A stretch of 64,000 bases of DNA from positions 1 to 64,000 of IMG/VR virus record IMGVR_UViG_3300044655_000639. The stretch is one strand, 5' to 3'. Shown one piece after another: positions 106 to 36,640 of the stretch; within the stretch, counting starts at the first letter, position 1; each line of letters starts with the position of its first letter. Below the pieces are notes generated by a model, which had not been told where the DNA came from, searched no databases, and saw only the letters and a program-made list of their open reading frames with translations. The position numbers and the translations under genes were made by a program. Source of the stretch: a virus.

Positions 106-3100
106 ATGAACCTTACTGAACTACGTAATCAAGCTGCTAAGGATATTCAAGCTGAAAGATCTAAGATAGGATCTTCCTCCTATATTAACAATACAAACAT
201 ACCTTATAATGAGCCCACACTTGCTGATAGAAGATACACTGGTCTTGCTCCATATGGTGAACCTACTAAAGCAGAGAAGCTCTTAGAGGCTAGAAATGAA
301 AAGATAAATAGACTACATGCTCTTACATCTACAAGCTCTGGTGCTCAGCTACAACAAGCTCTATCAGACATTGTAGACCAGCAAGTGTACACAGATGCTA
401 ATGGTAACAAGTACCAAGAGATGTATGGTAAAGATAGTAATGGAAACACTACTATCACTAAGGTACCTTACACAAAAGAAAATGCATATGGTAATGAAGA
501 TACAAGAAATCTCTATATAGATAATACGCTAGAAGGGAATATGAAGTTAGGGTTAGCTCGTAGTGATAAAGGATTCCTAGGACGGTACACTCCTACAGAG
601 GACAGTAAAGGTAAGAAGTATGGATGGACTCCAGGACCTAAAGGTGTAACACCTCAAGATGGTGCCTTAATGGATATCCAACTACCATATAATGTAGCTA
701 CTCAATTCGAGCATGGTGTGCACTCTAACAGAGGACAACTGGCTAATAGAGCTATAGGTCAAGGTCCTGTATCAAAACAAGATATAGCAAACTTCGGAAG
801 TGGTAAGACTGAGTATACAACACAGAATGCTCCTATGTGGAATCAATCTGCTAATACTAATCCAAGACTAGCTCCAAATACTCCTCTACCTAAAGAAATG
901 GATAAACTGCATAAGTATCAAAATGGGTTACAGATAACTGATTCTAACCTAATAGATGCACTACAGTACGGTGTTGGTAGAAAAGCTGCTGGAATAGCAG
1001 ATGCTATTGTGGATGCTGGAGGACAAGTAGCAGTAGCTGGATATGGTATGATGAATCCTGAGATGACTCAAGAGCAAGTACAAAAGAAGATGGCTAAGAC
1101 TATGGGTGGAAACTCTTTCACCAAAGACTACTACAATAAAAATGGGGACTTCATAGGACTAGACAAGTACAAGAAAGCTGCAGAGTATGGATATGATGAT
1201 GCTACTACTCAAGCTGCTATGGCAGACTTCGGTAAAGCCTTTGATAGTGGAAGCCCTGTGGAGATGGCTAAGTCTATAGCACGTAATCTAGATGCTGCTC
1301 CTGAATTTATAGCAGAGAGTGCTGGAGAATTCCTGACTGGACCTATGAGAGCTGCAGGTGTAATCCTTAATACATTCGACTATGCTAATAAGACTCTAGA
1401 GAGAAGACAAGAAGAAACTGGTAAAGCATACACTACCCTAGGAGATAAAGCTCTAGCAGGTCTAACAGGATGGGGACAAGCTATACTGAATAAAGCTGGT
1501 GTAGATGAGATGATCGGTAGAACAAAGATCGTATCTGGTGTAATGGATAAGCTGATCAAGTCTAATAAGCTAACAGATGGGATGGTATTGAATGCTGGCA
1601 AGAGACTAGCAGGGGCACTGACAGTAGCAACTGGTAAAGGACTATATGAAGGTACTGAAGAAGTAGCACAGCAGTTCTTAGACATCGTAGGAGCTAAGCT
1701 TGGGGATGAAAAAGCTAATGAAATCTTCTCTAGTAAGACAGGAAGAGAACTGTTCCAAGCATTCGGAGGAGGGTTTGGGAGTGGTGCTGGAATGCATGTA
1801 GTAACATCCCCTAAAGAAACCATAGGAGCTGTACTGTCTCCTGTAATGGCTACTACTAATAAAGGACTAACAAGCCTAGCAGAAATATCAGCTAATAGAA
1901 CAGTAGCAGATATAGATGCAAGAAAAGCTAAAGAGTACATAGCAAAACAAAACGAAGTGACAGCAGCTGAGAATGCTAAAATAGAAGAGATCAAAGCTCA
2001 AGAGGAAGCTGTCACTCCTATTACTTCTACTACTACAGCAGATACGCTAGATCTAACAAGAGAAGATATATCTACTGATGAGATAAATAGTGCTGCTACA
2101 GATCTGGTAACTAAAACCATACAAGCACAAGAAGCTGGTACTGTATATGAACCTACAGTTAATGAGCAAGCATTCCAAGCTGCATATGGTGAAGCTGTTA
2201 ATGCTAAGTTCACTGAAGTATATGCTGACATAGCTACAAATACAAATACTACTAATGCTGGGCTTACCAAAGCAACACCTAAACAAATGTCAGAAGGCTC
2301 TAGGAAACTAAATGATAATCCAGAACTTGCTGCACAAAATACTGTACTAGACAAACTTAGTACAAAAGTATCTGAGGCTAAAACAGAAGTTGAAAGAACT
2401 AATGCAGAAGTTGCTTATAATTACCACCTCAATAATGTAGTTACTCCACTAATTAACAGTATAAGAGGTTTTGATGATGCAGGTAATCTAATAAGCACTG
2501 TTGAAACTTCTAGCGCAACTACTCCTGCTAAAGGAACTCCGACTATGGCAGTTAGTGATAGAACAAGTGAAACTATTCAACAAGAAATAGAGGAGTTAGG
2601 TACAAGTAGGGATAACACCTATGTAGAGGACCTGCAAAGATATGTTGATAATGGAATGGGCATAGAAGAAGCTAAAAAGAAAGCCCACTCTAATTCGAGA
2701 GAAACATTCAATAAGATAAAAGCACTAGAAGAAGAACTCAAGACTGTTAAGGCTAATGAAGTATCTCAAGATAAAGCATTCAAAGAACAAGGAATATCTG
2801 ATGATGATCTGACAATCTACAAGAATGCTGGTATAGCAAATATCATATCTGTAGACGATAGAGCTAAAGGGTTAGGTATTGAAATAGATACTGATAAGGT
2901 ACAATTAAAAGAAGGAAGCACTAAGAAGAATAAGCTGTATGATCCTATGAAAGCTGATAATGCAACTCTAGATAGTATCATAGAAAGTGGTTTCAATAAA
3001 GATACGATAGATGCATTAGATGTAAGCAATAAAGGATCCACATTTCTGCAAAGACTATCTAAACACTTCACATTCGGCAAAGAAAAGCAAGTAGAACTGA

Positions 3101-6100
3101 CTAAGATAGCAAAAGACATCACAGCTAAACTATCAAATCCTACTGTTAAAGAAGCTATGACTAAAGTATCTGGTACTGATACATCTACAGCACAAGCACT
3201 AAGAGCTATCACAGTGGCTGTAAGTGCTGTACGATCAGCTACTACAGCAGAATTCGATATCACACATGGTGAAGGTGCTAAACATAATGGATATGCTCCT
3301 CAACTGGGGCTAGCAGAGCAAGTAGGTAAAGCATACTTAAACTCATTCGGAGCTAAGCTAAAGGGTAAGGACTCTGAGAGTATGGCTGCAAAGCATAAAG
3401 AGATAGGTATGAATGTACTGAAACTAGCAGAAGCTGCTGGATATGTAGAGAGTGCTTCTAATATGTCATTCCAGGTCCATAATAGAGTAACACCTAAAGG
3501 AGATAGAGTATCCACAAGTAGAGATGGTGGTAAATCAGATATTCCTGTAGGACAGAAGTCAGGTACATTCGCTAATACTGGGTATAGAGTAAAAGGTGAC
3601 AAAGACTCTTCTCGTATACCTGAGAATGCTGTAGGTTCTACTCTATCAAGTCTGGATAAGATATTCAATCCTATCAATGAAGAGATGGTTATGAGTACTC
3701 CATCTGATGTAGTAACATCTAAGAATCCTATCTCAAAAGAGCACCAGCAGATCATAAAAGATATGCAAGGTATGAAGTTCAGAATAAAAGCTCCATTCAT
3801 AGAATTACTCAAAAGTATAAAGGCTTCTCTAGGTGATAATATGGAGGCAAATCTATCTACGAATCCTGATATTAAAAAGCTATTAGGACTGGATAAGAAG
3901 TCTACGCTACTGACAAAGATGGGAGACTCTGGTAAGAGTATCCAAAGAAAAGGTAATCTACTAAAGCTACTGGAGAACCTGGATGAACTAGAAGCCATGA
4001 GTAAAGATGGATTCCACTTCACATTAGATACTGCTATCAATGAACGTGTACATATAATGCAAACACTTCTAGAGTTCCAAGGTGATAAGTTCATGTCAAG
4101 ACAGATCCTAACAGGAGGAGAATACACTACTGGTAACAAGTATGAGTATGATATGCTGATCAATGACATAAAAGACAATCTACCAAAGGGTATGGAATAT
4201 AATGATGATAGATTGACTGCTGCTGTAAAAGACTTCAATAAAGGAGTATTCAATGGTGATCAAGCTGTGTTCAACATAGTAGCTACTATGAAAGCACTAG
4301 GCTTCGACTCTCCATTCAAGATGCTGAATGTCCTGCAAGGTATGGCTGATGTACAGAAAGCTGATGGGTACAAAGTGACTACTGAGTATGTTCCTAGTGC
4401 AGATGCTACTGCAAGTGGTGTAATGAATACTCTAATGAATCTAATCGGTATGCCTTCAATACAGAACATGTTCAATAACTGGATAAGTGGAGGTAAGTTC
4501 GATCCATATACTGCACTACTAGACGCTGTAGATCTAGATAAAGAAGGTTCTTTCAGTGAGAGAGCATTAGCTACAAACAATGTATTCAATATACTATATA
4601 AAGGATCTAATCGTGACATTACAAAGTATCCTATCATCAAATGGATATATGGTCAATGGAAAGGCAATACTGAAAGAGAGATGGCTGATAGTATAGCAGT
4701 AGACCTGCTAAAAGCTGCTACTACAGGAAATCAAGATGCACTCAATGAAGTCAATAGAATCCTAGCTACAGCTAATAAAGAAGGGTATGAGGATATACTA
4801 GTAGGCGATATAGCTGTACGATCAGGAGATGCTCATCTAATAAAAGAAGCAGAAGAACTAGAAGCTACTATCAAAGATGGTAACTATGTAATATTTGACA
4901 CTGAGACTACAGATAGTACTCAAGGTAAAAATAACCATATCATACAAGCATCTATTCGCATCTTCAAGAATGGCGTAGAACAAGAGCCTGTAATGATACA
5001 TGTGCCACTAGAAGACGGTATCACCATAAGCCAAGGTGCATTCGAGATCCACAAGGTATCAGAAGAGATTCTTAAAAGTAAGATAAAGAATGGTGAAACA
5101 AGAAAAGGTCAGATAGCTAAGATACGTAGAGCAATAGGTTCTCTGCCTATAATTGCACATAGTGCCTCTTTCGATACTTCAGCTCTTCAATTAGGAGACG
5201 GTAAGATTATCACTAATAAAGTGCATGACACTATGGCACTAGCTAAGATTGCTCAATATGAGAAAGCAGCCCAAGATGGTGGAAAGACTACAGGTGGTGT
5301 TATAAATATAAAGGCTCTTTCTAAGACATATGGTATAGAGTATGATGATAAAGCCTCTCATGATGCTGCATATGATACAGCTCAAACAAAGCTACTAATA
5401 CAACCAATGCTAGATAGATTCAATAGCGTAAAGAGTAAGCTAAAAGTAGAAGGTGCCAATAATATCAGTAACCTAACAGAAGAAGATAAAAAAGTAATAA
5501 CAGACTACTACCAAACCAACATAAGTTCTCTATATGTTCCAGCACTAGATAAAGCATTCCCTGGTGTAAAAGAGTATAGTACTGCCATGAAGACACTGTA
5601 TGGTATCCTACAAACAAGTAAAGTATGGGATGGTAGAATCAAGAGTGCTATGGGTGTAATGCAAGGCACTGGTAATAAGATGAGTGTACGTAAGCTAAAG
5701 AATGTTGTACAGGATGTAGACGGTGATCTAACACAAATAGACAAAGAGATGGATAATGAAACATCATTCCTGGTAAACCTACAGCACTCAGTAGATGCTG
5801 CGCTACTACTACTATCTATGCAGAAAGTATTGAATAATCCTAATCTAACAGAAGTTAGTGTAATGACTGTACATGATGACTTCAGAGCACAACCTAAAGT
5901 ACTACGTGAGATAATGGCAGAGTATAATAAGCTAACAAGAGAAGTAGCAGTAAAGTATGACTTCCTCAGTGTAGCAATGGATGAAGTACAAGAAGTGATA
6001 GAGAAGCTGGAAGCAAAAGAGAACAAGACTCCAGAAGAGATAAAAACTCTATCAGTAGTAAAAGCTCAATATAACTCATTCAAGAATGATAGACAATTCC

Positions 6101-9100
6101 CTGGTACTGATGGAAAGCTAACAGTAAATGAAATGCTAGAAGCTAAGAAGAAATTCTTAGAAGGAGACATAGGTCTAAAAGTACTAGGAGATAAAACTGT
6201 AGATCTAAGTGGAGTAGATACTTCTGTATCTAAGCATAAAGCCAAAGAGAAAGCAGCACAGACTCTATCAGAGAAACTACATGAAGCACTGAACAATGGT
6301 GCAGATGTAGCAACAGCTCTACAATCTGTGGTAAATACTATAAAGGTGAGTGAAGAGTATGGTGCTCTAAAGCAGAAGGTTCTAGATGCTCTATCAGGTA
6401 AGACTATAACATTCAGTAGAAGTGATCAAGGCTTTACTGGAGGTAATGGTAAAGTAACAATACCTACTGGAAAGATAGGAGAAGAAAGATTCGTAGCTTC
6501 TGCACAGAGAGCTACAGCAATGACTCCTGAAGGGCTAATAGAGACATTAGCACATGAGATAGATCATGCCTATAAGCTAAGCTATATAGAGAGTGATACA
6601 GGGCTTAAATCACCTGAGGTGAAGTATCTAAATAAAGTGGTAGAAAAGCTACGGAGAGAGCGAGATAAAGGTAATCTAACAACACTATCATCAGAAACCC
6701 AAGCACGTATAAAGTATATAGTAGAACATAAAGATGCTGGGAGAGCTGTGAGTGAGCTGGTATCAGTACTAGAGAATGAAATCTCTGTATCCAATGAGAT
6801 TAAAGGAATAGTACAAGCACCTACACTTCTAGAAGTGCTATCTAACCTCATCAAGAGAGTGAAGGAATGGGTTAAAGCAATGACTCAAGATGAGAGAAAA
6901 TCTCGTATAAGTGAAGCTATGAGTAATGATGATACTACTATGATGGCACTAGAAGCATCTCTAATAGAAGTAAGTATTAACTCTAAAGCATATGGTGTAG
7001 GAGATGGTAAAGCTATGGCTAGAGCTTCAGCTAAGTCAGATACTGATACGGTAAATGATCCATACTTCAATGAGAATCTAAATCCGTTAGTAGCAGCTAA
7101 TAAAGCTATGGCTAAGTCTAATAGATTCCTATCAGACTGGATGATCATATGGGGTGATCTAATAGCTCAAGAAGTAGGACCTATAGCTGGTAAGTTCCAT
7201 AATAAGATGAAAGAGAAATATCCTGTGTATGTTCAGACAATGAGTATGATACGATCAGGATTCTATGAGAGTGAGTGGATGCAAAAGATGCATACAAATC
7301 TAGGAGTAGATGGATCAAGATCTGAAGTAATCAATAAGCTGCAGACTCTACGTCATGAGATAGGGCAACAGACAGGAGCACTAGCTAGAAAGATGGCAGA
7401 GCTTAAAAGAAGACAAGAAGAAGTCTATACAAAGAAAGAGCGTAATACATTATATGCTATGTTCAAGACTGGTATAGGGCATCTATCAACAGAAGAGCTA
7501 AAGACAGTACATGATGGTATCTTCAATGGAAGTATGACATATAAAGAAGCTATAGCTATAGTATCTGATGGTATGACTGCTGATCAAATAAGACAGTTAG
7601 ATAATGTTGCTAACTACGTAAATACTGGTAATACTACTGAGACAGCAAGAGAAGTGAATACACTATTCATAGAAGGTGTATCAGAAGAGAAAGGTGGAGC
7701 ATACGTAGCATTGAAAGCATTATCTCAAATACCTGGATCACTAGAACTGCTAAAGGGCATGGATAAAGATATGCTGAAAGAGATGCTGTCTATTGCAAAT
7801 GCTAACAAACATCTAAGTGAAGTAATCAATAGAGCAAAGACAGACTACACAGGTAAGAAGATCACTAATGAAGCTGGTTACTATAGTGACTATGATGTAA
7901 CGTATGCTATGGACATCTTCAATGAGAATCATGAGTATGTACTGATCACTGCAGAAGATCTAAAAAGAAGCATCTACTCAGAAACCAATGGATGGTTTGT
8001 AGTAAAGGGTGTAGAGAATGGAGTAGGTCTGGTAGGAAGAAAAAGTTATTCTCCTACTAATAGACCAGGTGTTGGACTAGAAGTAACAAGATACCAGAAT
8101 GGTGTATACCTAGATCCAGAACAATCAGCTAAGATGGATAACATAATAGGAAAGTTAAAATCTAAAGAAGCAGTATCAGCATATCTAGATGCAAACAGTA
8201 TCACAATGGATAATGGTAAATACAGATTTGTAATAGATGAGAAGACTAAAAGAGAGAAACTTGATCTAGTAGAGGATTCAGCTGAGTCTCTATATAGAAC
8301 ATATATCAGAAACTTCGAACTAGTACATGCTCAAAGTATTAAGGATATAGTGCTCAATGAAGGAATTCAACATATCAATACAGAAAAGGATATGCTAATC
8401 CTAAATACTATTCTAGAAACTAACAATAAAGAGAGAGGTCTACTAAGTAGAACTAAAGTACTACCATTCCTAAAAGTAAACTATGATATGAAGATGACAT
8501 ATGATGAAATGGCTAAGAAATACCCATACATTGCAATGTATTTTAGAACTCCTAATAATCTATCAACATATCAAGAGTTCAACCAGAACATAACATTTGT
8601 AAAGAAAGGTGAAGGTGATGTGCTGTTAGGATACAAGCCAGGAACATTATTCGCAGATAGTGATAATAGATCCCTAGCAAAATGGGAATCTATGTATAAG
8701 AAACTAATAGTACTATCAAAGCAAAAGATGATTGTAACAAACCCTAAGAAGCTTGCTGTAGATGCTGCTGCTAACATGGGGATCCTATCTATGTATGATA
8801 TGGACCCAATGTCTATATTCAGAGGAATGAAAGATGGATTCACAGAGTACCATAAGTTAACAGCTAAAAGAAACACTCTAGTAGATGTGGAACTTAAAGC
8901 AAGAATAGCCTTCAATAGTAAAGATACTGCAAAGTATGAAGTACTGATGAAAAGACGTGATAAGATAAATGCTCAGCTAAAAGAGATGAAGTTCTATGAT
9001 GCATGGAAATCAGGTTTCATACAGTCATACAGTACAGATCTAGTACTTAAAGAGTTTGATACTATCAGTGGTATCCAAAGAGATATAGATATATTCATAG

Positions 9101-9792
9101 ATAAATATACTATTGATGAGAAAGGTGATCCAAATGCATTGTATAAAGCTATAAAGTGGTGGCAAGAAGCTGGAGGACCAAAAGCTAATGTAGAAACATT
9201 CTTCAGTGCTGTTAGTAAAGCAAGTGCATTAAAAGGGACAATGTTAAGTACTGAGTTAAAAGAGCTGAGTGAGAGATTAAAGAATAAGAAGAATGAAGAG
9301 AGTGTGGCAAGGTATGTCAGCGAGTTCCTAGGAAGTCCCTCATCTGAAGTGGTAAGCTATGGTAGTGCTACTATGGTGTTGATAGATGCCCTATCTAAGT
9401 ATCTTCTAGCAAATCACCTAATGACTCAAGAGAATCCTAGAAAGGGTAAAGTAGGTGCAAGACCTATGTATACTAAAGAAGAAGCATACGCTATAGCTCA
9501 AGAGACATTCATAGACTATAGAGATAATCTTCCAAAAGAAGTACAGACACTAAGTGACTATGGTGTATTACTGTTCCCAGCATACTGGATGCGAGTACAG
9601 AAGATACTAGCGGGACTAGCATTGTACCACCCTATAAGCTCGCTAGGAGGATTTGCAATAGAAGCTTCACTAGGTATTGAGAGCATGAGTGCAATGAACT
9701 CTAACCTGTTTACAAAGGGGGCAAATGAAGGGCTTATAAACCTAAACCCAGCTGAGGTGATAGATGCAGGTTCTGTAATGGTATTGCTCTAA
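106..9792 (+). CDS. giant N4-like virion RNA polymerase with exonuclease and HEXXH domains
   Basis: This 3228-residue protein matches the size class of the N4 virion RNA polymerase, which is packaged, injected with the DNA and transcribes early genes. The single-subunit polymerase motifs are readable in order: a TxxGR-like block near residues 1303-1325 (INERVH, then FQGDKF), motif A DATASG (D1433), motif B R1503-x3-K1507-x7-YG1516, and motif C VHDD (H1923, D1924). A DEDDh exonuclease lies between motifs B and C: FDTET (D1598, E1600), AHSASFD (D1690), HDAAYD (H1752, D1757). A zinc-peptidase-like HEIDH follows at 2150-2154. The first ~1000 residues contain Ala/Gly-rich and helical stretches typical of injected virion proteins; the last ~1000 are unassigned. 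The start has AAAGGA upstream. The polymerase call rests on motifs read by eye. Confidence 0.88.
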   Translation: MNLTELRNQAAKDIQAERSKIGSSSYINNTNIPYNEPTLADRRYTGLAPYGEPTKAEKLLEARNEKINRLHALTSTSSGAQLQQALSDIVDQQVYTDANGNKYQEMYGKDSNGNTTITKVPYTKENAYGNEDTRNLYIDNTLEGNMKLGLARSDKGFLGRYTPTEDSKGKKYGWTPGPKGVTPQDGALMDIQLPYNVATQFEHGVHSNRGQLANRAIGQGPVSKQDIANFGSGKTEYTTQNAPMWNQSANTNPRLAPNTPLPKEMDKLHKYQNGLQITDSNLIDALQYGVGRKAAGIADAIVDAGGQVAVAGYGMMNPEMTQEQVQKKMAKTMGGNSFTKDYYNKNGDFIGLDKYKKAAEYGYDDATTQAAMADFGKAFDSGSPVEMAKSIARNLDAAPEFIAESAGEFLTGPMRAAGVILNTFDYANKTLERRQEETGKAYTTLGDKALAGLTGWGQAILNKAGVDEMIGRTKIVSGVMDKLIKSNKLTDGMVLNAGKRLAGALTVATGKGLYEGTEEVAQQFLDIVGAKLGDEKANEIFSSKTGRELFQAFGGGFGSGAGMHVVTSPKETIGAVLSPVMATTNKGLTSLAEISANRTVADIDARKAKEYIAKQNEVTAAENAKIEEIKAQEEAVTPITSTTTADTLDLTREDISTDEINSAATDLVTKTIQAQEAGTVYEPTVNEQAFQAAYGEAVNAKFTEVYADIATNTNTTNAGLTKATPKQMSEGSRKLNDNPELAAQNTVLDKLSTKVSEAKTEVERTNAEVAYNYHLNNVVTPLINSIRGFDDAGNLISTVETSSATTPAKGTPTMAVSDRTSETIQQEIEELGTSRDNTYVEDLQRYVDNGMGIEEAKKKAHSNSRETFNKIKALEEELKTVKANEVSQDKAFKEQGISDDDLTIYKNAGIANIISVDDRAKGLGIEIDTDKVQLKEGSTKKNKLYDPMKADNATLDSIIESGFNKDTIDALDVSNKGSTFLQRLSKHFTFGKEKQVELTKIAKDITAKLSNPTVKEAMTKVSGTDTSTAQALRAITVAVSAVRSATTAEFDITHGEGAKHNGYAPQLGLAEQVGKAYLNSFGAKLKGKDSESMAAKHKEIGMNVLKLAEAAGYVESASNMSFQVHNRVTPKGDRVSTSRDGGKSDIPVGQKSGTFANTGYRVKGDKDSSRIPENAVGSTLSSLDKIFNPINEEMVMSTPSDVVTSKNPISKEHQQIIKDMQGMKFRIKAPFIELLKSIKASLGDNMEANLSTNPDIKKLLGLDKKSTLLTKMGDSGKSIQRKGNLLKLLENLDELEAMSKDGFHFTLDTAINERVHIMQTLLEFQGDKFMSRQILTGGEYTTGNKYEYDMLINDIKDNLPKGMEYNDDRLTAAVKDFNKGVFNGDQAVFNIVATMKALGFDSPFKMLNVLQGMADVQKADGYKVTTEYVPSADATASGVMNTLMNLIGMPSIQNMFNNWISGGKFDPYTALLDAVDLDKEGSFSERALATNNVFNILYKGSNRDITKYPIIKWIYGQWKGNTEREMADSIAVDLLKAATTGNQDALNEVNRILATANKEGYEDILVGDIAVRSGDAHLIKEAEELEATIKDGNYVIFDTETTDSTQGKNNHIIQASIRIFKNGVEQEPVMIHVPLEDGITISQGAFEIHKVSEEILKSKIKNGETRKGQIAKIRRAIGSLPIIAHSASFDTSALQLGDGKIITNKVHDTMALAKIAQYEKAAQDGGKTTGGVINIKALSKTYGIEYDDKASHDAAYDTAQTKLLIQPMLDRFNSVKSKLKVEGANNISNLTEEDKKVITDYYQTNISSLYVPALDKAFPGVKEYSTAMKTLYGILQTSKVWDGRIKSAMGVMQGTGNKMSVRKLKNVVQDVDGDLTQIDKEMDNETSFLVNLQHSVDAALLLLSMQKVLNNPNLTEVSVMTVHDDFRAQPKVLREIMAEYNKLTREVAVKYDFLSVAMDEVQEVIEKLEAKENKTPEEIKTLSVVKAQYNSFKNDRQFPGTDGKLTVNEMLEAKKKFLEGDIGLKVLGDKTVDLSGVDTSVSKHKAKEKAAQTLSEKLHEALNNGADVATALQSVVNTIKVSEEYGALKQKVLDALSGKTITFSRSDQGFTGGNGKVTIPTGKIGEERFVASAQRATAMTPEGLIETLAHEIDHAYKLSYIESDTGLKSPEVKYLNKVVEKLRRERDKGNLTTLSSETQARIKYIVEHKDAGRAVSELVSVLENEISVSNEIKGIVQAPTLLEVLSNLIKRVKEWVKAMTQDERKSRISEAMSNDDTTMMALEASLIEVSINSKAYGVGDGKAMARASAKSDTDTVNDPYFNENLNPLVAANKAMAKSNRFLSDWMIIWGDLIAQEVGPIAGKFHNKMKEKYPVYVQTMSMIRSGFYESEWMQKMHTNLGVDGSRSEVINKLQTLRHEIGQQTGALARKMAELKRRQEEVYTKKERNTLYAMFKTGIGHLSTEELKTVHDGIFNGSMTYKEAIAIVSDGMTADQIRQLDNVANYVNTGNTTETAREVNTLFIEGVSEEKGGAYVALKALSQIPGSLELLKGMDKDMLKEMLSIANANKHLSEVINRAKTDYTGKKITNEAGYYSDYDVTYAMDIFNENHEYVLITAEDLKRSIYSETNGWFVVKGVENGVGLVGRKSYSPTNRPGVGLEVTRYQNGVYLDPEQSAKMDNIIGKLKSKEAVSAYLDANSITMDNGKYRFVIDEKTKREKLDLVEDSAESLYRTYIRNFELVHAQSIKDIVLNEGIQHINTEKDMLILNTILETNNKERGLLSRTKVLPFLKVNYDMKMTYDEMAKKYPYIAMYFRTPNNLSTYQEFNQNITFVKKGEGDVLLGYKPGTLFADSDNRSLAKWESMYKKLIVLSKQKMIVTNPKKLAVDAAANMGILSMYDMDPMSIFRGMKDGFTEYHKLTAKRNTLVDVELKARIAFNSKDTAKYEVLMKRRDKINAQLKEMKFYDAWKSGFIQSYSTDLVLKEFDTISGIQRDIDIFIDKYTIDEKGDPNALYKAIKWWQEAGGPKANVETFFSAVSKASALKGTMLSTELKELSERLKNKKNEESVARYVSEFLGSPSSEVVSYGSATMVLIDALSKYLLANHLMTQENPRKGKVGARPMYTKEEAYAIAQETFIDYRDNLPKEVQTLSDYGVLLFPAYWMRVQKILAGLALYHPISSLGGFAIEASLGIESMSAMNSNLFTKGANEGLINLNPAEVIDAGSVMVLL

Positions 9793-9795
9793 TGA

Positions 9796-9818
9796 CACAC
9801 TCCTAAGAGTGTGCTTTA
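9796..9818. terminator. bidirectional terminator hairpin between convergent genes
   Basis: CACACTC, loop CTAA and GAGTGTG form a perfect 7-bp stem, followed rightward by CTTT. The loop contains the stop codon of the leftward MazG-like gene, and the rightward polymerase gene stops 4 bases before the stem. Confidence 0.7.
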
Positions 9819-10186
9819 GATAATCGACATACAGTGTAGTCTGGTTCATATAGAGTAGATGGGTCTTGATTAGGATCTTTCTTCCATTTACCATCTGGTC
9901 CTTCCATACGCCATGATATAGCCTGTAATGGATCCTGCTGTCTAGCAGAGATATGCTTCACTACCTGCTTCATGACTAGATCAATGTCATAGCCCATAAG
10001 AGCAATCTCATTAGCTGAAAGTACAATGATATCAGCAATAGCATCAACCATACCATGCTCATCAGAAGCATTCACTGCATCTGAATATTCCTCTAGTTCT
10101 TCTGTGATAGATGCAACATACACACCCTGTGGTGCAATGATGTTACGATCTCTACGCCATACCTTCAATGAGTCTGTCCACTTCAT
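9803..10186 (-). CDS. MazG-like nucleotide pyrophosphohydrolase
   Basis: The 127-residue product has the all-alpha NTP-pyrophosphohydrolase pattern: EELEEY near residue 30, then a helix with DAIADIIVL giving the second metal-binding acidic pair. The tail GPDGKWKKDPNQ resembles phage MazG-like proteins. The likely role is hydrolysis of non-canonical or excess NTPs. It is the last gene of the leftward nucleotide-metabolism run and overlaps the upstream gene by ATGA. The exact substrate cannot be told. Confidence 0.65.
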   Translation of the reverse strand: MKWTDSLKVWRRDRNIIAPQGVYVASITEELEEYSDAVNASDEHGMVDAIADIIVLSANEIALMGYDIDLVMKQVVKHISARQQDPLQAISWRMEGPDGKWKKDPNQDPSTLYEPDYTVCRLSKAHS

Positions 10187-10521
10187 TTGCCTTCTCCATG
10201 AAGCTCATCTACTACAAGCTGTGCATAGCCTGCAATGTCGATCCATGAATCATCATAGAAAGGATCTCCGTTACCAATACGACCAATCTTATGGAAGATC
10301 ATATCTAAGGATTCTCTCATGGCAGGAGTAAGTCTGCTGAAGTTGTTAGAGTGCTTAATGAAAGCATCTTTCAATGCCTGAGTAAGTGCTGCATGACCTG
10401 AGAACTTACCATAACGGTTTCCTCTTTCTAGTAGAATATCTTCTACACCTATATACTGTTTTTCTAATGATGGTGACATTACTGCGTCTCCTCCTCCGTG
10501 ATCTGAAAATGCTAATGACAT
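10183..10521 (-). CDS. DUF6378-like phage protein
   Basis: The 112-residue product contains ERGNRYGKFSGHA, then SLDMIFHKIGRI and DPFYDDSWIDIAGYA. This order of conserved blocks is that of a small phage family related in fold to MazG-like proteins (DUF6378). Its biochemical role is unknown. It lies between the RNR genes and the MazG-like gene, which suggests a link to nucleotide pools. Confidence 0.65.
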   Translation of the reverse strand: MSLAFSDHGGGDAVMSPSLEKQYIGVEDILLERGNRYGKFSGHAALTQALKDAFIKHSNNFSRLTPAMRESLDMIFHKIGRIGNGDPFYDDSWIDIAGYAQLVVDELHGEGK

Positions 10522-10523
10522 AC

Positions 10524-10694
10524 TTAATCTCCTTTAGGTAAGTCTGGTGCAGAGTCAATAATGACCTGCATAGCTTTAAAGTATATGCCTTTGTATTGTT
10601 CATTCAGTTTAGCAAGTGCTTCAGCTTTCACTGTAGCAGATGCTTCTGATGTAGCAATAGCATCATACTTCTTACTGTATTCTTTTGGTGTCAT
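10524..10694 (-). CDS. 56-residue conserved-position small protein
   Basis: Starts MTPKEYSKKYDAIATSEASA. It begins with an ATGA overlap on the nrdB stop and ends 3 bases before the next gene, so it is firmly inside the operon. It is a short, mostly helical, charged protein without a recognised domain. Confidence 0.7.
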   Translation of the reverse strand: MTPKEYSKKYDAIATSEASATVKAEALAKLNEQYKGIYFKAMQVIIDSAPDLPKGD

Positions 10695-11716
10695 ACACTA
10701 CTCCATTTACTATAATCTATATCTTCCCAGTCACCATCTACGGCTTTGCTGTATGTTGTTACACGACCACTGAAGAAATCAGTTAAGACAGTACCAACAA
10801 CATCATCCATGTATGGTAATGGGTTGACAGTAGTATTATAGTTAGGTTTCATACCAAGTTCCTTTAAAGCAATATCAGCACGATACTGAATGTAACGCTT
10901 CAAGTCACTATTAGCAATGTGGGCATAATCAAAGTAATCTACCAGAGCTTCTTCATATGCTACCATCTCACGGATACCCTGATAGATATCATACTTCAAC
11001 TCATCATCCCAAATATCAGGATTCTCAGCTATGAATGTACGGAACAAGTGGCAGTTACCAATGAAGTGCATATTCTCTTCACGAATACTATACTCTACTA
11101 TGGTACAAAGACCAGGGTATTTCCCAGAGAACTGATACTTAAGGAGTGCTGCAAACTGTGCCATGAGAGAGATACCTTCAGCACCTCCAGCATAGATGGC
11201 AAGCATACGAGCTACATCTCTACGGAATACTTTATCGAGAGCAAGCTCTGATAAGTTCATAGCCTTGTATTCTTCGTACTTCTTGACCTTAGCTTTCTCA
11301 AGGTAATCAGCTTTAGAAGCCATAACAGGTATATCAAGGAAGTCCTGATAGATACTGTTAGGAAGCCCTATGGTCTCAGTGAATAGAGAGTAGTTCTCAA
11401 TGTGAGTAAACTCTCTAGCCATGAAGTTCGATAGCATAGCCTGTACCTCAATAGGTTTGAAGATACGAAGTAAGACTGCATAGCCATTCTCAACTGATAC
11501 TTCCTGCTGAGTGAATAGTCTCATGGTACGAGTGATGTCATCCTTCTCTTTAGGAGAAGCTCTATCAAAGTCCTGAATGTCTTTAGCTAGTGATATGATA
11601 TCAGCAGTCCAGTGAGCACGATCATGTTCTTTGTAATAATTCCAAAATTTAGGATAGCGAAAGCCTTTAGAAGACTTGAATGTGGGAATACCATTAATGT
11701 GAATGAGTGTACTCAT
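10691..11716 (-). CDS. nrdB: class I ribonucleotide reductase beta subunit
   Basis: 341 residues. The protein would carry the diiron-tyrosyl radical that starts reduction of ribonucleotides by NrdA. EFTHIENY gives ligands E102 and H105 and the radical tyrosine Y109 with the same spacing as E115, H118 and Y122 of E. coli NrdB. E72 is placed like D84, and EENMHF gives the second Glu-His pair. Length is normal for the family. It is coupled by ATGA overlaps to a 55-residue gene upstream and a 56-residue gene downstream. Confidence 0.93.
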   Translation of the reverse strand: MSTLIHINGIPTFKSSKGFRYPKFWNYYKEHDRAHWTADIISLAKDIQDFDRASPKEKDDITRTMRLFTQQEVSVENGYAVLLRIFKPIEVQAMLSNFMAREFTHIENYSLFTETIGLPNSIYQDFLDIPVMASKADYLEKAKVKKYEEYKAMNLSELALDKVFRRDVARMLAIYAGGAEGISLMAQFAALLKYQFSGKYPGLCTIVEYSIREENMHFIGNCHLFRTFIAENPDIWDDELKYDIYQGIREMVAYEEALVDYFDYAHIANSDLKRYIQYRADIALKELGMKPNYNTTVNPLPYMDDVVGTVLTDFFSGRVTTYSKAVDGDWEDIDYSKWSSV

Positions 11717-11880
11717 AAGTATTCTCCTATACTAAAGTATAATTGGTTTAGGTCATGTGCAGACATAAACCATACATATGAATCTATATCTGAATAATGC
11801 TCCATAGCATCTCCCATAGACTCAAACTCACCTAAATAAGATATCTTACAATCTTCAGTAAATGCATAGTATTTATTCAT
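11713..11880 (-). CDS. 55-residue protein between nrdA and nrdB
   Basis: Starts MNKYYAFTEDCKISYLGEFE and has the acidic/aromatic stretch DIDSYVWFMS. It begins with an ATGA overlap on the nrdA stop and ends with an ATGA overlap on the nrdB start, so translation of the three is coupled. No known domain is recognised. Confidence 0.75.
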   Translation of the reverse strand: MNKYYAFTEDCKISYLGEFESMGDAMEHYSDIDSYVWFMSAHDLNQLYFSIGEYL

Positions 11881-13679
11881 GTACAGCCTAAGCAGGTATC
11901 AGACATCATATCTATTTCCTTATGTTGTATTTGTTTACGTTCACCTGATGCAGTAGAAGCTGATACTCCTGCAGTAGAACGGACGTAGTATAGTGACTTG
12001 ATCTTCTTCCTCCAAGCAAGAATGTGAAGGTCTGAGATGAACTGTACAGATGATCCTGCTGGTATGAAGATGTTCAGTGACTGTCCCTGATCAATGAGAG
12101 CAGAACGATCTCCAGCAAACTCTAGCAGCCAACGCTGATCTAACTCAAAAGCAGTCTTGAATACATCCTTAATATTCTGTGGCATCCAATCTAGATGCTG
12201 TACAGAACCACTGTTCTTCTTAATGGAGTCCCACTGCTGAGATTCCCAAGCACTAGGATATCCTTCTCCTGCCTCATTAAAGAAGTCAGAGATATACTGT
12301 TCAAGATACTTATTCTTAATAGCAAAAGATCCCTGCTTAACCTTCTTAGTGAAAGCATTAGTGACCCAAGGCTCAATACCAGATGAAGTAACACCACACA
12401 ATGATGAGATACTCATGGTAGGAGCAATAGCAGTAACGTGAATGTTACGTTTCAATGTTCCATTACGATCAGACATAGGGCACTTATGACCTCCTACATG
12501 TAAGCTAGCAATCTCATCATTATGATTATCAGCTGATTCCTTAATCATACTGAAGATCTTCATGTTAAGACCTTTAGCAATAGAGGATTCCCAAGGAATA
12601 AGCTTAGACTGTAGAAGTGAATGGAAGCCCATTACTCCAAGTCCGATACTTCTTTCGTCAATGGCTCCTGCTCTAGCTCGCTCGAATCCACTGAGATGCT
12701 CAGTACGGTTGATGAAGTCTTGAAGTACGTTGTCAAGATAATCAGAACAATCAGCAATGAACTGATCAAAACAATGTTGGTACTCATCCCAATACTCAAG
12801 ATTAATGCTACCAAGACAACAAACTCCACTATGGTTATCGTCAGTACGAAGCGTAATCTCAGTACAGAGGTTAGATGTTGTAACTTTGATGTTTTCATTC
12901 TTATATTCCTCTGGTGCTAAGTCATTGACAGTATCAATGAATAGTAGATAAGGTTCTCCTGTAGTAATACGAGCCTCTAGGATCTGAGACCATAGCTTAC
13001 GAGCTGATACAGTACGAACTACTGCTCCAGTCTTTGGTGATAATAAATTCCAGTTGTAATCATTCAAGACACAATGCATGAAGTCATCAGAGATAACCAC
13101 ACCATGATGGAGATTAGGAGTTCTACGGCTACTGTCACCAGTCTCCTTACGGATATCAATGAACTCCTCAATCTCAGGATGTGAGATATCAAGGTATGTA
13201 GCTTCAGAAGCTCTACGAAGACCTCCCTGACTGATGGCAAGAGTACTACGGTCTGAGATACCTAAGAATGGTATGAGTCCAGAAGACTTTCCACCATGAG
13301 GTCCTACAGATTCATTGACTGAACGTACCTTAGACCAGTCAGTACCAATACCTCCACCATAAGCACCAAGGTTAAATGCTTCATTATAGTTCTGGAAGAT
13401 GGAGGGTTTATTGTCAGCAACACTCTTAGTGAAGCATGATATAGGAAGTCCTCTATCAGTACCAGCGTTAGATGAAATAGGCGTTGAACCATGCCACCAG
13501 TAATTTTTTAAATATATAGCCATACGATCAGCATGTTCTGTATCGTTGGCATAAGCATTGCTTACTCTATGTACCCATTGATCATAATCTTCGTTGGGTA
13601 AAAAATAAGTTTCTTTATACAATGCTTTGGAAAAGTCAGGTAAGCCTGACCAACTTCTACTATGTAATAGCTGTAACAT
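11877..13679 (-). CDS. nrdA: class I ribonucleotide reductase alpha subunit
   Basis: 600 residues, shorter than bacterial NrdA because the N-terminal ATP-cone is absent. Catalytic features are present: C82 in GLPISCF and the partner cysteine in GVCCLGSINL (C287/C288), SNLCTEI with N270, C272 and E274, the YY radical-transfer pair in SLYYVRS, and the C-terminal redox pair C596-LG-C599. The start overlaps the end of an HNH endonuclease gene by 20 bases. Absence of the ATP-cone suggests no dATP inhibition through that domain, as in some phage enzymes. Confidence 0.93.
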   Translation of the reverse strand: MLQLLHSRSWSGLPDFSKALYKETYFLPNEDYDQWVHRVSNAYANDTEHADRMAIYLKNYWWHGSTPISSNAGTDRGLPISCFTKSVADNKPSIFQNYNEAFNLGAYGGGIGTDWSKVRSVNESVGPHGGKSSGLIPFLGISDRSTLAISQGGLRRASEATYLDISHPEIEEFIDIRKETGDSSRRTPNLHHGVVISDDFMHCVLNDYNWNLLSPKTGAVVRTVSARKLWSQILEARITTGEPYLLFIDTVNDLAPEEYKNENIKVTTSNLCTEITLRTDDNHSGVCCLGSINLEYWDEYQHCFDQFIADCSDYLDNVLQDFINRTEHLSGFERARAGAIDERSIGLGVMGFHSLLQSKLIPWESSIAKGLNMKIFSMIKESADNHNDEIASLHVGGHKCPMSDRNGTLKRNIHVTAIAPTMSISSLCGVTSSGIEPWVTNAFTKKVKQGSFAIKNKYLEQYISDFFNEAGEGYPSAWESQQWDSIKKNSGSVQHLDWMPQNIKDVFKTAFELDQRWLLEFAGDRSALIDQGQSLNIFIPAGSSVQFISDLHILAWRKKIKSLYYVRSTAGVSASTASGERKQIQHKEIDMMSDTCLGCT

Positions 13680-14145
13680 CTGTACACCTTTTTGAATGAA
13701 TTTTTCTATGACAGTTGCTGCATACTAAGATACACTTATCTACTTCAGTCTTCCAACTTTCAAAAGGAGACATATCTATCTTCTTATGAATTCCAAACTC
13801 TTTAGTAGAAGGGTCTAGATGATGAAAGTCAAATGGTGCAAAGCACTCATCCTCATAGTTACAAATAGAGCAAGCTATCTTTCCACCTAAATGCTCTTTA
13901 ATCTTTAGCACATTGGCTGAATAGTAGTTAGCTCTTCTATTCCTATTTGTCTCTCTCTCACGTTCTCTATACCCATCTTTTCCATTATTTCGTGTAGGAA
14001 TAGTAGTATCTTTTTTACATTGCTTACACATAGGTCTAAATTTCTTTGATCCTGCTGTGTATCTACTGTATCTTATAAATGTGTCTAAGGCATCTGTATA
14101 ACTATCTGACTCTTTACCACATCTATTACACTTTATATAGCACAT
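13660..14145 (-). CDS. HNH endonuclease, free-standing homing type
   Basis: 161 residues. Two Cys pairs near the N terminus (CNRCG and CKQC), a basic linker, then the nuclease core CSICNYE, FDFHHLDP and CSNCHRKIH form an HNH/zinc-finger fold. It lies directly before nrdA, a frequent homing target in phages, and overlaps its start. It has its own promoter-like region upstream. It is inferred to be a mobile gene that cuts endonuclease-free nrd loci. Confidence 0.82.
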   Translation of the reverse strand: MCYIKCNRCGKESDSYTDALDTFIRYSRYTAGSKKFRPMCKQCKKDTTIPTRNNGKDGYRERERETNRNRRANYYSANVLKIKEHLGGKIACSICNYEDECFAPFDFHHLDPSTKEFGIHKKIDMSPFESWKTEVDKCILVCSNCHRKIHSKRCTDVTAIT

Positions 14146-14172
14146 ATGTATCCTTTAAAATTAAGATACTGT

Positions 14173-14201
14173 ATTATACTATAAAATGGTTTCATACACA
14201 A
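14173..14201 (-). promoter_or_regulatory. candidate sigma-70 promoter for the HNH-nrd operon
   Basis: On the minus strand TTGTGT is followed after 17 bases by a perfect TATAAT, 28 bases before the HNH gene start. The -35 box lies inside the loop of the inverted repeat at 14184-14219. Confidence 0.5.
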
Positions 14202-14219
14202 TAGCTGGTGAAACCATTT
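14184..14219 (-). terminator. 11-bp inverted repeat, probable terminator
   Basis: The arms AAATGGTTTCA and TGAAACCATTT are perfect complements separated by 14 bases. Leftward the second arm runs into TTTTATAG. It follows the gene ending at 14244 and overlaps the promoter of the next operon. Confidence 0.55.
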
Positions 14220-14243
14220 AAAGCTGGTAATGAATTCCAGTCT

Positions 14244-14540
14244 CTACTCATCTGCATGTCCTCTACTGAATGATGGTCCAGTCTTGAATGGATCAGGACG
14301 AGGAACAGCTACTGAAGGTAATACTGGTGCTTCCATCTTCATAGCAACAAACATATTGGCAGGCTCTGCTACAGTAGTAATAGGATCTAGTGTTACCTCC
14401 ATACGAGTACCAGCACCGAGGTCCCCACGACCAACAGTAAGCTTAGTACTAATATTGAAACGGTCAGTACTGAAGCCTTGCTCCTTGAGCCAAAGTAGTA
14501 CAGCCTCATCGAATTCCTTTGTGTTAAGTGTGATAGTCAT
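14244..14540 (-). CDS. 98-residue phage protein of unknown function
   Basis: Starts MTITLNTKEFDEAVLLWLKE and continues with a beta-rich part containing KLTVGRGDLGAGTRMEVTL and a Pro-rich tail. It ends the replication run just before a probable terminator. No catalytic motif is visible. Confidence 0.7.
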   Translation of the reverse strand: MTITLNTKEFDEAVLLWLKEQGFSTDRFNISTKLTVGRGDLGAGTRMEVTLDPITTVAEPANMFVAMKMEAPVLPSVAVPRPDPFKTGPSFSRGHADE

Positions 14541-14542
14541 AG

Positions 14543-14647
14543 TTATACTCCAATGTGACGTAATACTTTACGTTTAGTGATACTAGCAATAATGCTAATG
14601 ATGGTAGAGATAAGCACTCTCCATGCAAATTTAATAAAGAGAGCCAT
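14543..14647 (-). CDS. 34-residue membrane peptide
   Basis: Starts MALFIKFAWRVLISTIISII, one hydrophobic helix followed by a basic tail KRKVLRH. AAGGAG lies six bases before the start, and the start directly follows the stop of the upstream gene. Confidence 0.55.
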   Translation of the reverse strand: MALFIKFAWRVLISTIISIIASITKRKVLRHIGV

Positions 14648-14842
14648 TTAGACTCCTTCTACTAATACATAACCTTCTTCAAAAGAAGCTTTAGGAGACC
14701 AACTAGCATAGTCATGTGAGTATACTACATGATATCCAGGTTCATCTGTAAGAGACTCATCTCTTACTAGATTCAAAGCTTGTGCTTCAAAACGTGTCAT
14801 AGGTTCAGCTGTAACAATTTTAGTACATTTATATGTTTTCAT
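14648..14842 (-). CDS. 64-residue conserved small phage protein
   Basis: Contains MTRFEAQAL, then GYHVVYSHDYASWSPKASFE. The last block matches a small protein type common beside phage replication genes (aromatic GY-V-Y and SWSPK). Role unknown. It abuts its neighbours on both sides. Confidence 0.75.
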   Translation of the reverse strand: MKTYKCTKIVTAEPMTRFEAQALNLVRDESLTDEPGYHVVYSHDYASWSPKASFEEGYVLVEGV

Positions 14843-15013
14843 CTACTCTCCCTTGTCTGCTGCTAATAGCTCTGCTTTAGCTGCTGTAGCAATCTTTTTC
14901 ATCTGATTGATGAGATCACGTAAACGCTTAGATGATGCCTTAGTAGGCTTAGAAGCATATAGTGATACTTCTGACTGATACTTCGATACGAGTGTGTTGA
15001 ATTGTTCTAACAT
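14843..15013 (-). CDS. small basic coiled protein, histone-H1-like
   Basis: 56 residues. SKPTKASSKRLRDLINQMKK followed by an Ala/Lys-rich helix resembles short Hc1-type DNA-binding proteins of bacteria and phages. The stop directly abuts the next start. DNA binding is inferred from charge and pattern only. Confidence 0.6.
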   Translation of the reverse strand: MLEQFNTLVSKYQSEVSLYASKPTKASSKRLRDLINQMKKIATAAKAELLAADKGE

Positions 15014-15021
15014 GGTGATCC

Positions 15022-15198
15022 TTAGATTTGGTTGTGTTCTGCCCAGTAGGACAGCTCATCATATAAAGCTCTAGCAATAGTAGGATCAATGTCCTTCAAT
15101 GCCTGGGCAACTAGGTGTGAATTCTCAAATGTAATAGTAGTAGCAATGATGCAAGGATCTACATCAAAAGCATCTATTGCTTCTGATACGAGTTCCAT
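15022..15198 (-). CDS. 58-residue acidic small protein
   Basis: Starts MELVSEAIDAFDVDPCIIAT and includes ALKDIDPTIARALYDELSY. The start overlaps the SSB-like stop as TAATG, so the two are coupled. No domain recognised. Confidence 0.7.
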   Translation of the reverse strand: MELVSEAIDAFDVDPCIIATTITFENSHLVAQALKDIDPTIARALYDELSYWAEHNQI

Positions 15199-15881
15199 TA
15201 TTTCTTACCGAATGATGGTTTACCGAAAGATGCTTTAGGTGCTGCTTTGGTAGTAGATGCTGGAGCTGATCCAGAGTCACGTCCACCAGCAATCCATGCA
15301 GTTATAGCTTCTTCAGTTAGACCATCTTTGTATGTTACATTCTCAGCATAAGCCAAGTCTTTAGCAAGTTTGACACCAGCTTCTGTCTCATTGAGGATCT
15401 CTTCTGCTGAAGCACCAGAGTCTGTATAGAATGCTTTGATTACTTTCTTCTCAGAGATCTGTCCTGCTTTAGCGTAACCTTCTGGAACTACTGAGTATTC
15501 CATCTGTACACGCATCTTCAGTTCGATGTCCTGGAAGTCAGGAAGGATAGCTACTTCTTTCATAGCTCCTGCTTTACCGATAGGAAGCTCTGCTTCTTCT
15601 GGGTCACTGATGTCTTCAATTCCACAGACTACTGCTAGCTTGCTGAATAGACTTGCTTGGAAGTTAGGTGTACCATCGTTGTTATCAAGACGGATAGCAC
15701 CATACATTACTTGAGCTGTACCATTGTTATCTACAAATAGATTGAGAGTACGAGCGCCTTTATCGTTGATATCAACGATGATGTTCTTGAGTGTCACATC
15801 ATAGATGCCTGACTTATTGATTGTGTTGCTACCGCCTTCGTTCTTAGCAGCTGCTGCTACGTCTACTTTAAAAAATGCCAT
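15198..15881 (-). CDS. putative single-stranded-DNA-binding protein
   Basis: 227 residues. The first ~150 are beta-rich (GIYDVTLKNIIVDIN and NLFVDNNGT), followed by an acidic helical part and a Ser/Ala/Lys tail ending FGKPSFGKK. Position next to the Sak4-like ATPase and exonuclease fits the N4 gp45-type SSB, which also assists the middle RNA polymerase. The tail is basic rather than acidic as in bacterial SSB. The call rests on context and general fold. Confidence 0.6.
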   Translation of the reverse strand: MAFFKVDVAAAAKNEGGSNTINKSGIYDVTLKNIIVDINDKGARTLNLFVDNNGTAQVMYGAIRLDNNDGTPNFQASLFSKLAVVCGIEDISDPEEAELPIGKAGAMKEVAILPDFQDIELKMRVQMEYSVVPEGYAKAGQISEKKVIKAFYTDSGASAEEILNETEAGVKLAKDLAYAENVTYKDGLTEEAITAWIAGGRDSGSAPASTTKAAPKASFGKPSFGKK

Positions 15882-15903
15882 TGTATATTTCCTTATATGT
15901 TCT

Positions 15904-15925
15904 GAGTGGGTAACATCCCGTACTC
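15904..15925 (-). promoter_or_regulatory. 5' leader hairpin of the SSB-like gene
   Basis: On the minus strand GAGT-AC-GGG, a six-base loop, CCC and ACTC form a hairpin 23 bases before the start codon. It may be a binding site for autoregulation or a processing site; this is inference. Confidence 0.35.
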
Positions 15926-15939
15926 TAAGATACTATGTA

Positions 15940-16122
15940 TCAACTATTTTTTAATACTTTTAAGCATACTGCTTTTGTGTCTAGATAAGTGGATGGTGTT
16001 CTTTGAACTTTATGAATAAGCTTACTAGCCTCTTTACACTCTTGTACAGTACTAAACTTTTCTAATAAGGTTTGTTCTGTATCATAGGTGGATAGTCTAA
16101 TAATCAAGAGCCATTCATACAT
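15940..16122 (-). CDS. 60-residue unknown protein
   Basis: The start at 16122 is chosen because it forms TAATG with the stop of the Sak4-like gene. It begins MYEWLLIIRLSTYDTEQT and has a helical middle with two Cys (QECKEA, AVCLKV). No known domain. Confidence 0.65.
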   Translation of the reverse strand: MYEWLLIIRLSTYDTEQTLLEKFSTVQECKEASKLIHKVQRTPSTYLDTKAVCLKVLKNS

Positions 16123-16892
16123 TAAAATGACCACTCAGCTAGATCTGTCTGCTGCGATAAGAGAAGATCAATGTGAGCTTTAAGCGAGAAGTACTCTTCA
16201 CCTTCTTTTAAGGACTTGCTTTTAGACGGGTCTACTGTGTTGGCTACATACATCTTATCTGGAAGATCAATGATAGCTGTACGAGCTTGCTTGTCTTCAC
16301 CTCTCATATATACTGCACGATGTTTCAGCTCAGAGACAAGAGTGATAGATTCATTGACCGTACTGTAAAAGCCACCTTTCTCAAGGAACTTACCAGATCC
16401 AAATGAGATATAGTTACCAGTGGTCTTACCATCAGCTTTCTCTTCAATAACATGATTGAGTAAGATGACAGAGATACCATTGAGTTCTAATGTTTCATGA
16501 ATGAAGCTGGTAAGGATAGCCATCTCTTTAGTGACTTCAGCTCCCTGACTTCCATAGACGTTAGGCTTCTGTGAGGCTTTATCAATGACATCCATGAAGA
16601 TTTGAGATACTGAATCAATAGCAACAATCTCTGGATATGAACCAAAGCGTTCATTGAACAGTTCTAGTTTATCCATGATACCATCAATGTGAGTCTTCTC
16701 CCCATCTACTGTGATGTTACCTCCAAAGCAGAGAGTCTTCATATCATAGAATGTATCTACAAGCATATGAGGTACTTTCAATGAGAAAGACTTAGCATCT
16801 CTAGATACAACGAATGATTCTTTTCCTAGGGTACGTAGAAGGTCTGTCTTACCAGCTCCTGCTTTACCATTGATTAGTAATTTAACTGCCAT
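16122..16892 (-). CDS. Sak4-like RecA-fold ATPase
   Basis: 256 residues. Walker A GKAGAGKT at 9-16 and Walker B PEIVAIDS (D93), followed by a RecA-type core. Such Sak4-like phage ATPases act with SSB and an exonuclease in single-strand annealing and recombination-dependent repair. The neighbours are exactly an SSB-like protein and a PD-(D/E)XK exonuclease, equivalent to the N4 gp43-gp44-gp45 block. It overlaps the exonuclease gene by 11 bases. Confidence 0.8.
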   Translation of the reverse strand: MAVKLLINGKAGAGKTDLLRTLGKESFVVSRDAKSFSLKVPHMLVDTFYDMKTLCFGGNITVDGEKTHIDGIMDKLELFNERFGSYPEIVAIDSVSQIFMDVIDKASQKPNVYGSQGAEVTKEMAILTSFIHETLELNGISVILLNHVIEEKADGKTTGNYISFGSGKFLEKGGFYSTVNESITLVSELKHRAVYMRGEDKQARTAIIDLPDKMYVANTVDPSKSKSLKEGEEYFSLKAHIDLLLSQQTDLAEWSF

Positions 16893-36604: not shown

Positions 36605-36622
36605 AATATTCTCCTCAGAATA

Positions 36623-36640
36623 ATACACTCTATGGTGTAT
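36623..36640 (-). promoter_or_regulatory. ATACAC-TCTATG-GTGTAT inverted repeat
   Basis: Perfect 6-bp arms around a TCTATG core, 19 bases before the start of the RNA polymerase gene. Candidate promoter or operator. Confidence 0.5.

Follow-up and report, generated by a model that had tools for sequence, protein, structure and literature searches.

The window, the whole stretch of DNA analysed here, comprises 64,000 nucleotides (bases 1-64000 of the 74,282-base virus record IMGVR_UViG_3300044655_000639). It encodes an N4-like virion RNA polymerase (vRNAP) in a single open reading frame (ORF) of 3228 amino acids (106..9792, on the plus strand, as are all features of this gene given below). Sequence comparison and structural modelling indicate that a DEDDh exonuclease domain of about 180 residues is cleanly inserted in frame, on short linkers, between motifs B and C of this polymerase. 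A first-pass annotation of the sequence had proposed such an embedded exonuclease at 4891-5880, which corresponds to residues 1596-1925, and every residue that it named was located in ORF 106-9792. The numbering of its motif B pair, "YG1516", had to be adjusted, the tyrosine being Y1515 and the glycine G1516.

Identity of the polymerase and of the embedded exonuclease

The family PHROG_2206, "virion RNA polymerase", matched the C-terminal part of the protein (E = 1.1e-15, best stretch 2857-3220). When a profile of its relatives was compared with the N4-like vRNAP family using hhalign, a probability of 99.9 and E = 1.3e-36 were obtained over 1748 columns. The alignment covered the polymerase and C-terminal domains, residues 1028-3207 of the window protein being matched to 1146-3474 of N4, and it paired the key positions with those of N4 mini-vRNAP. 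R1314 (4045..4047), within the T/DxxGR-type motif INERVHIMQT, corresponds to R424, and its neighbour V1315 to position 425. Motif A, left unnamed by the first-pass annotation, is DATASG (4402..4419); its catalytic D1433 is paired with D559 and is invariant in 10 aligned relatives. Motif B, RDITKYPIIKWIYG (4612..4653), contains R1503, K1507, Y1515 and G1516, equivalent to R666, K670, Y678 and G679, while motif C, VHDD (5869..5880), contains the catalytic D1924, equivalent to D951. Both were assigned from the sequence, the alignment of relatives and the profile alignment.

The structural comparison with N4 mini-vRNAP suggested by the first-pass annotation was carried out with an AlphaFold2 model of residues 1000-2160. 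The mean predicted local distance difference test score (pLDDT) was 67, and most of the catalytic core scored 70-94. A Foldseek search of the PDB with this model returned N4 mini-vRNAP as top match (1.2e-8). VIA-align Z values were 15.6 for the yeast mitochondrial RNA polymerase (RNAP), 15.0 for T7 RNAP and 12.8 for N4 (2po4, 643 residues aligned). That motifs A to C meet in one active site was thus supported indirectly, by their mapping to N4 D559, R666/K670/Y678 and D951 and by the alignment of the model to single-subunit RNAPs across the whole hand. Single-subunit RNA polymerases are akin to the family-A DNA polymerases. Sequence and model together identify the product of 106-9792 as an N4-like vRNAP with the single-subunit RNAP fold. 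By analogy with N4 vRNAP, for which ejection is known, it would be packaged in the virion and ejected.

The exonuclease domain (residues 1595-1761, 4888..5388) was recognized by the Pfam family RNase_T (PF00929) above its curated cut-off, with E = 3.5e-8 for the whole protein and 3e-10 for the fragment. PHROG_192, "DNA polymerase exonuclease subunit", matched it as well (E = 3e-20). In a 24-sequence alignment, D1598 and E1600 of Exo I (FDTETT, 1597-1602, 4894..4911) and D1690 of Exo II (HSASFD, 1685-1690, 5158..5175) were invariant, and H1752 and D1757 of Exo III (HDAAYD, 1752-1757, 5359..5376) were at least 90% conserved. Folded alone with AlphaFold2, using 24 sequences including 23 relatives, the domain adopted the DnaQ fold with a mean pLDDT of 88.8 and a predicted template modelling score (pTM) of 0.86, so that the RNase-H-like fold anticipated for residues 1595-1760 was obtained. 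Its closest VIA-align neighbours included a DnaQ domain (Z 17.9), Pol III epsilon (Z 17.7) and residues 408-614 of the DNA polymerase chain 9qrn (Z 16.5 over 188 residues), and RNase T and TREX1 were also among the best. On this sequence and model evidence the DEDDh set is a real, catalytically conserved domain, and 3'-5' activity is predicted for it.

The nearest sequences in bacterial genomes were the exonucleases of PolC-type proteins of Bacilli (28%, E = 4e-14), encoded by ORFs of about 1590 amino acids; they are probably PolC, judging from ORF size, exonuclease position and sequence. A wider alignment search with the exonuclease recovered only four viral loci, two of which, L078 and L084, are described below. 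Proteins of about 730-760 amino acids from Rhodobacterales and Desulfosarcina (L111, L114, L115 and L141) were observed to carry a C-terminal DEDDh domain related to the embedded exonuclease.

The limits of the insertion were defined by collinear phmmer segments. Six relatives (L075, L076, L079, L080, L085 and L087) are collinear with the window protein up to residues 1555-1556 and again from 1785-1789, with no more than about 14-21 residues of their own in the gap, and multiple alignments agree. The inserted segment therefore comprises residues 1556-1784 (4771..5457), about 229 residues opposite a linker of about 10-25 amino acids in the nearest relatives, and starts about 40 residues past motif B. 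The frame is unbroken across both junctions, and the composition and codon usage of the insert match those of its flanks. In the profile alignment the site is equivalent to residues ~737-777 of N4 mini-vRNAP. Since it falls between motif B and K849/K850, which are finger residues of N4 mini-vRNAP (PMC4496689), the insert probably lies in the fingers, in agreement with the first-pass annotation.

Occurrence and history of the insert

In order to look for the insertion in other vRNAPs, as had been proposed, 28 schitovirus-like records were searched, and RNase_T was found in three, each time within the vRNAP frame. It was missing from the other 25, including N4, Littlefix, VCO139, nACB1 and two Alteromonas phages. 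It was also missing from 12 more named phages, schitoviruses or N4-like and drawn from various genera, which brings the named phages without it to 18. N4 gave no RNase_T match anywhere, consistent with the earlier remark that the arrangement was not known there. When either exonuclease was used in tblastn against 50,697 phage records, no RNA polymerase gene was matched by the exonuclease part. A vRNAP scan of genome contigs gave no match, and neither did single-sequence scans of viral contigs in which the query was the exonuclease or the polymerase region; relatives were recovered solely via conserved-motif alignments. Among relatives found by their portal, the vRNAP was mostly absent or very divergent.

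The second case is represented by L078 and L084, from two other metagenomes, which are identical at 3060 of 3064 residues and carry the exonuclease at the same linker. It shares 31% identity with that of the window (E = 2e-21), keeps all five catalytic residues and exceeds the RNase_T cut-off (4.3e-13). The L078 polymerase is 86% identical at the protein level to those of L079 and L080, which have no exonuclease, and the DNA on either side of the insert is ~88-89% identical. In the polymerase tree L078 was sister to L080 (bootstrap 100), with the window allele distant, whereas the tree of exonucleases united both embedded copies in one group against the other sampled ones (bootstrap 98). It follows from these trees and identities that the exonuclease was gained repeatedly, transferred from one vRNAP to another or lost several times, and under every history considered it is an accessory domain. 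One ancestral gain is possible. Regain or transfer between vRNAPs is the simpler history, because a single gain needs losses in L079, L080, L075 and others, L078 being sister to L080.

An exchange of the whole module was found in L079 (IMGVR_UViG_3300042328_000299). Its DNA is 99.5% identical to the window at 1-1883, resumes at 97.3% from 9785 and reaches 97-99.8% over long matches in 9785-16807, and matches of ~90-99.8% to the full record occur in 68948-74282. From 1883 to the end of the gene (1883..9789, counterpart segment 5372-13975), the vRNAP of L079 is a divergent allele with ~38-41% protein identity and without the exonuclease. This is a homologous block replacement of the polymerase plus C-terminal module; one breakpoint falls at about residue 593 and the other coincides with the stop codon. 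The module is thus seen exchanged as a block between near-identical phages.

Relation to known systems and possible roles

DNA polymerases with a built-in exonuclease are already known, as are vRNAPs and DEDDh exonucleases. The window protein shares with N4 vRNAP (gp50; PHROG_2206) a giant late-region gene, the single-subunit motifs A, B and C, the HExxH motif of the C1 domain, a large C-terminal domain and a schitovirus neighbourhood, and it differs in the exonuclease-bearing segment that replaces the short linker. PolC-type DNA polymerase III also carries a DEDDh exonuclease inserted within the polymerase polypeptide, and its sequences were the nearest among the genome loci found. Membership of that group was rejected, as PolC is a C-family DNA polymerase with its exonuclease in the PHP domain (PMC3919608), whereas the host domain here is a single-subunit RNAP. 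PolrMT, likewise a single-subunit RNAP, has a 3'-5' exoribonuclease domain that acts in cis and competes for the 3' end of the nascent RNA (PMC11346463); it has PPR helices instead of the DEDDh fold, and its role is a cellular one in primer formation. RNase T, DnaQ epsilon and TREX1 have the same fold and motif set, but are stand-alone enzymes or replisome subunits. A search of open-licence literature found no exonuclease described in a vRNAP, nor a single-subunit RNAP whose motifs B and C are separated by a DEDDh exonuclease. To our knowledge, no single-subunit RNA polymerase with a DEDDh exonuclease is known.

Transcript proofreading, primer trimming and attack on host DNA, the roles named by the first-pass annotation, are treated here as hypotheses. 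The reading tentatively preferred is that the exonuclease would enter the cell with the ejected polymerase and act in cis, on 3' ends of the nucleic acid that the polymerase handles; the growing 3' end of early transcripts would be its most likely target. Misincorporated or extruded RNA 3' ends would be removed in this way, and stalled complexes rescued or aborted. Cis action is favoured because both inserts interrupt the polymerase domain itself, at one and the same linker, instead of lying at a domain boundary, and RNA trimming because PolC and PolrMT apply their built-in exonucleases to their own products. A narrower version, in which a DNA-dependent single-subunit RNAP would use a built-in DEDDh proofreading exonuclease to correct or retract the transcripts it makes, as an RNAP counterpart of PolC or Klenow, appears rather unlikely. 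Several observations weigh against trimming in cis. Neither RNA nor DNA is singled out as substrate by the present evidence, and the shared linker may be merely a tolerant surface loop. The close relatives L079 and L080 presumably transcribe without the exonuclease; as their polymerases are ~86% or more identical to that of L078, the domain is accessory and probably dispensable for transcription. In addition, the exonuclease part of the 1000-2160 model had a pLDDT of only ~25-60, because the alignment used there contained no usable exonuclease rows.

Because the domain is distributed as an accessory and vRNAPs are polyvalent proteins (PMC5512222), a host-directed role is nearly as likely as cis trimming, although it too is doubtful. 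The exonuclease would then be a passenger effector of a giant, injected multidomain protein, degrading host or defence-related RNA or single-stranded DNA from a loop that merely tolerates it. N4-like RNAPs with MPTase, lysozyme, PBECR and ART domains are known (PMC5512222), the presence and absence among close polymerases and the block swaps resemble conflict-driven turnover, and the fold is also that of general 3' exonucleases such as TREX1 and RNase T. However, the known accessory domains are fusions to the RNAP module, while both embedded exonucleases sit inside it, flanked by motifs B and C, and PMC5512222 does not discuss DEDDh effectors (no occurrence of DnaQ or DEDD). Action on phage DNA at entry, in which the entering genome, or template strands near the hairpin promoters, would have their 3' ends trimmed or resected, is improbable. 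It would fit the binding of single-stranded promoter hairpins by vRNAP, which transcribes at the onset of infection (PMC4496689), the attack of DEDDh enzymes on single-stranded DNA 3' ends and the closeness to PolC-type exonucleases; most schitoviruses, however, do without the exonuclease, and the phage also has a DNA polymerase (24977-27055) that itself contains an exonuclease region. The retention of all five catalytic residues in two copies that have diverged to 31% identity, both above the RNase_T cut-off, leaves only a slim chance for a non-catalytic structural or regulatory insert, which might for instance help the protein to unfold and refold as it is ejected, or to discriminate promoters, even though the domain is optional and lies downstream of the O helix/motif B loop, which changes shape in N4 (PMC4496689). 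Since the record behind the window is metagenomic, an assembly chimera or a fortuitous motif match was also considered. It was rejected as hardly credible on the basis of the unbroken frame, the flank-like composition and codon usage and the independent second case at the same site, and the confident exonuclease fold also speaks against it.

Whichever role applies, one vRNAP linker is marked as a site that accepts a functional domain without destroying the polymerase. The exonuclease looks like optional equipment, serving either RNA quality control or the fight against the host. L078 and its exonuclease-less relatives L079 and L080 offer a natural pair in which fidelity, stalling, transcript ends or phage-host conflict could be probed.

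Other domains of the gene and phage type

The window protein combines, by sequence, the RNAP and DEDDh exonuclease with a third enzyme-like element, an HExxH motif (HEIDH, 6553..6567, within AHEIDHA, 2149-2155) in a zincin-like C1 domain located C-terminal to the polymerase domain. HEIDH was present in every relative examined, and the HExxH of C1 is known from N4 (PMC12633501, PMC5512222). A C2-like C-terminal domain, aligned to relatives, extends over 7009..9789 and forms an ORF of its own in L076 and L087. In these two (757-10283 in L076 and 6986-16236 in L087) the vRNAP consists of two overlapping ORFs, of ~2140-2173 and 944-1003 amino acids, and the split falls at the same place, between the HExxH-bearing C1 domain and C2. 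This suggests that their vRNAP is naturally two-part. In record G020, an unusually long vRNAP-sized open frame of 4029 amino acids was observed (L068, 1554-13640).

The record is of the schitovirus (N4-like) type. PHROG matches were found for the whole gene set by which this type was recognized (portal, N4-type primase, early RNA polymerase, SSB and major capsid), as well as for the terminase and a Sak4-like protein. RNAPII of N4 is composed of two subunits. In the window, a single ORF of 612 amino acids (34790-36628, minus strand) matched both PHROG RNA polymerase families 2051 and 414; it may therefore represent an early RNAP in fused or reduced form.
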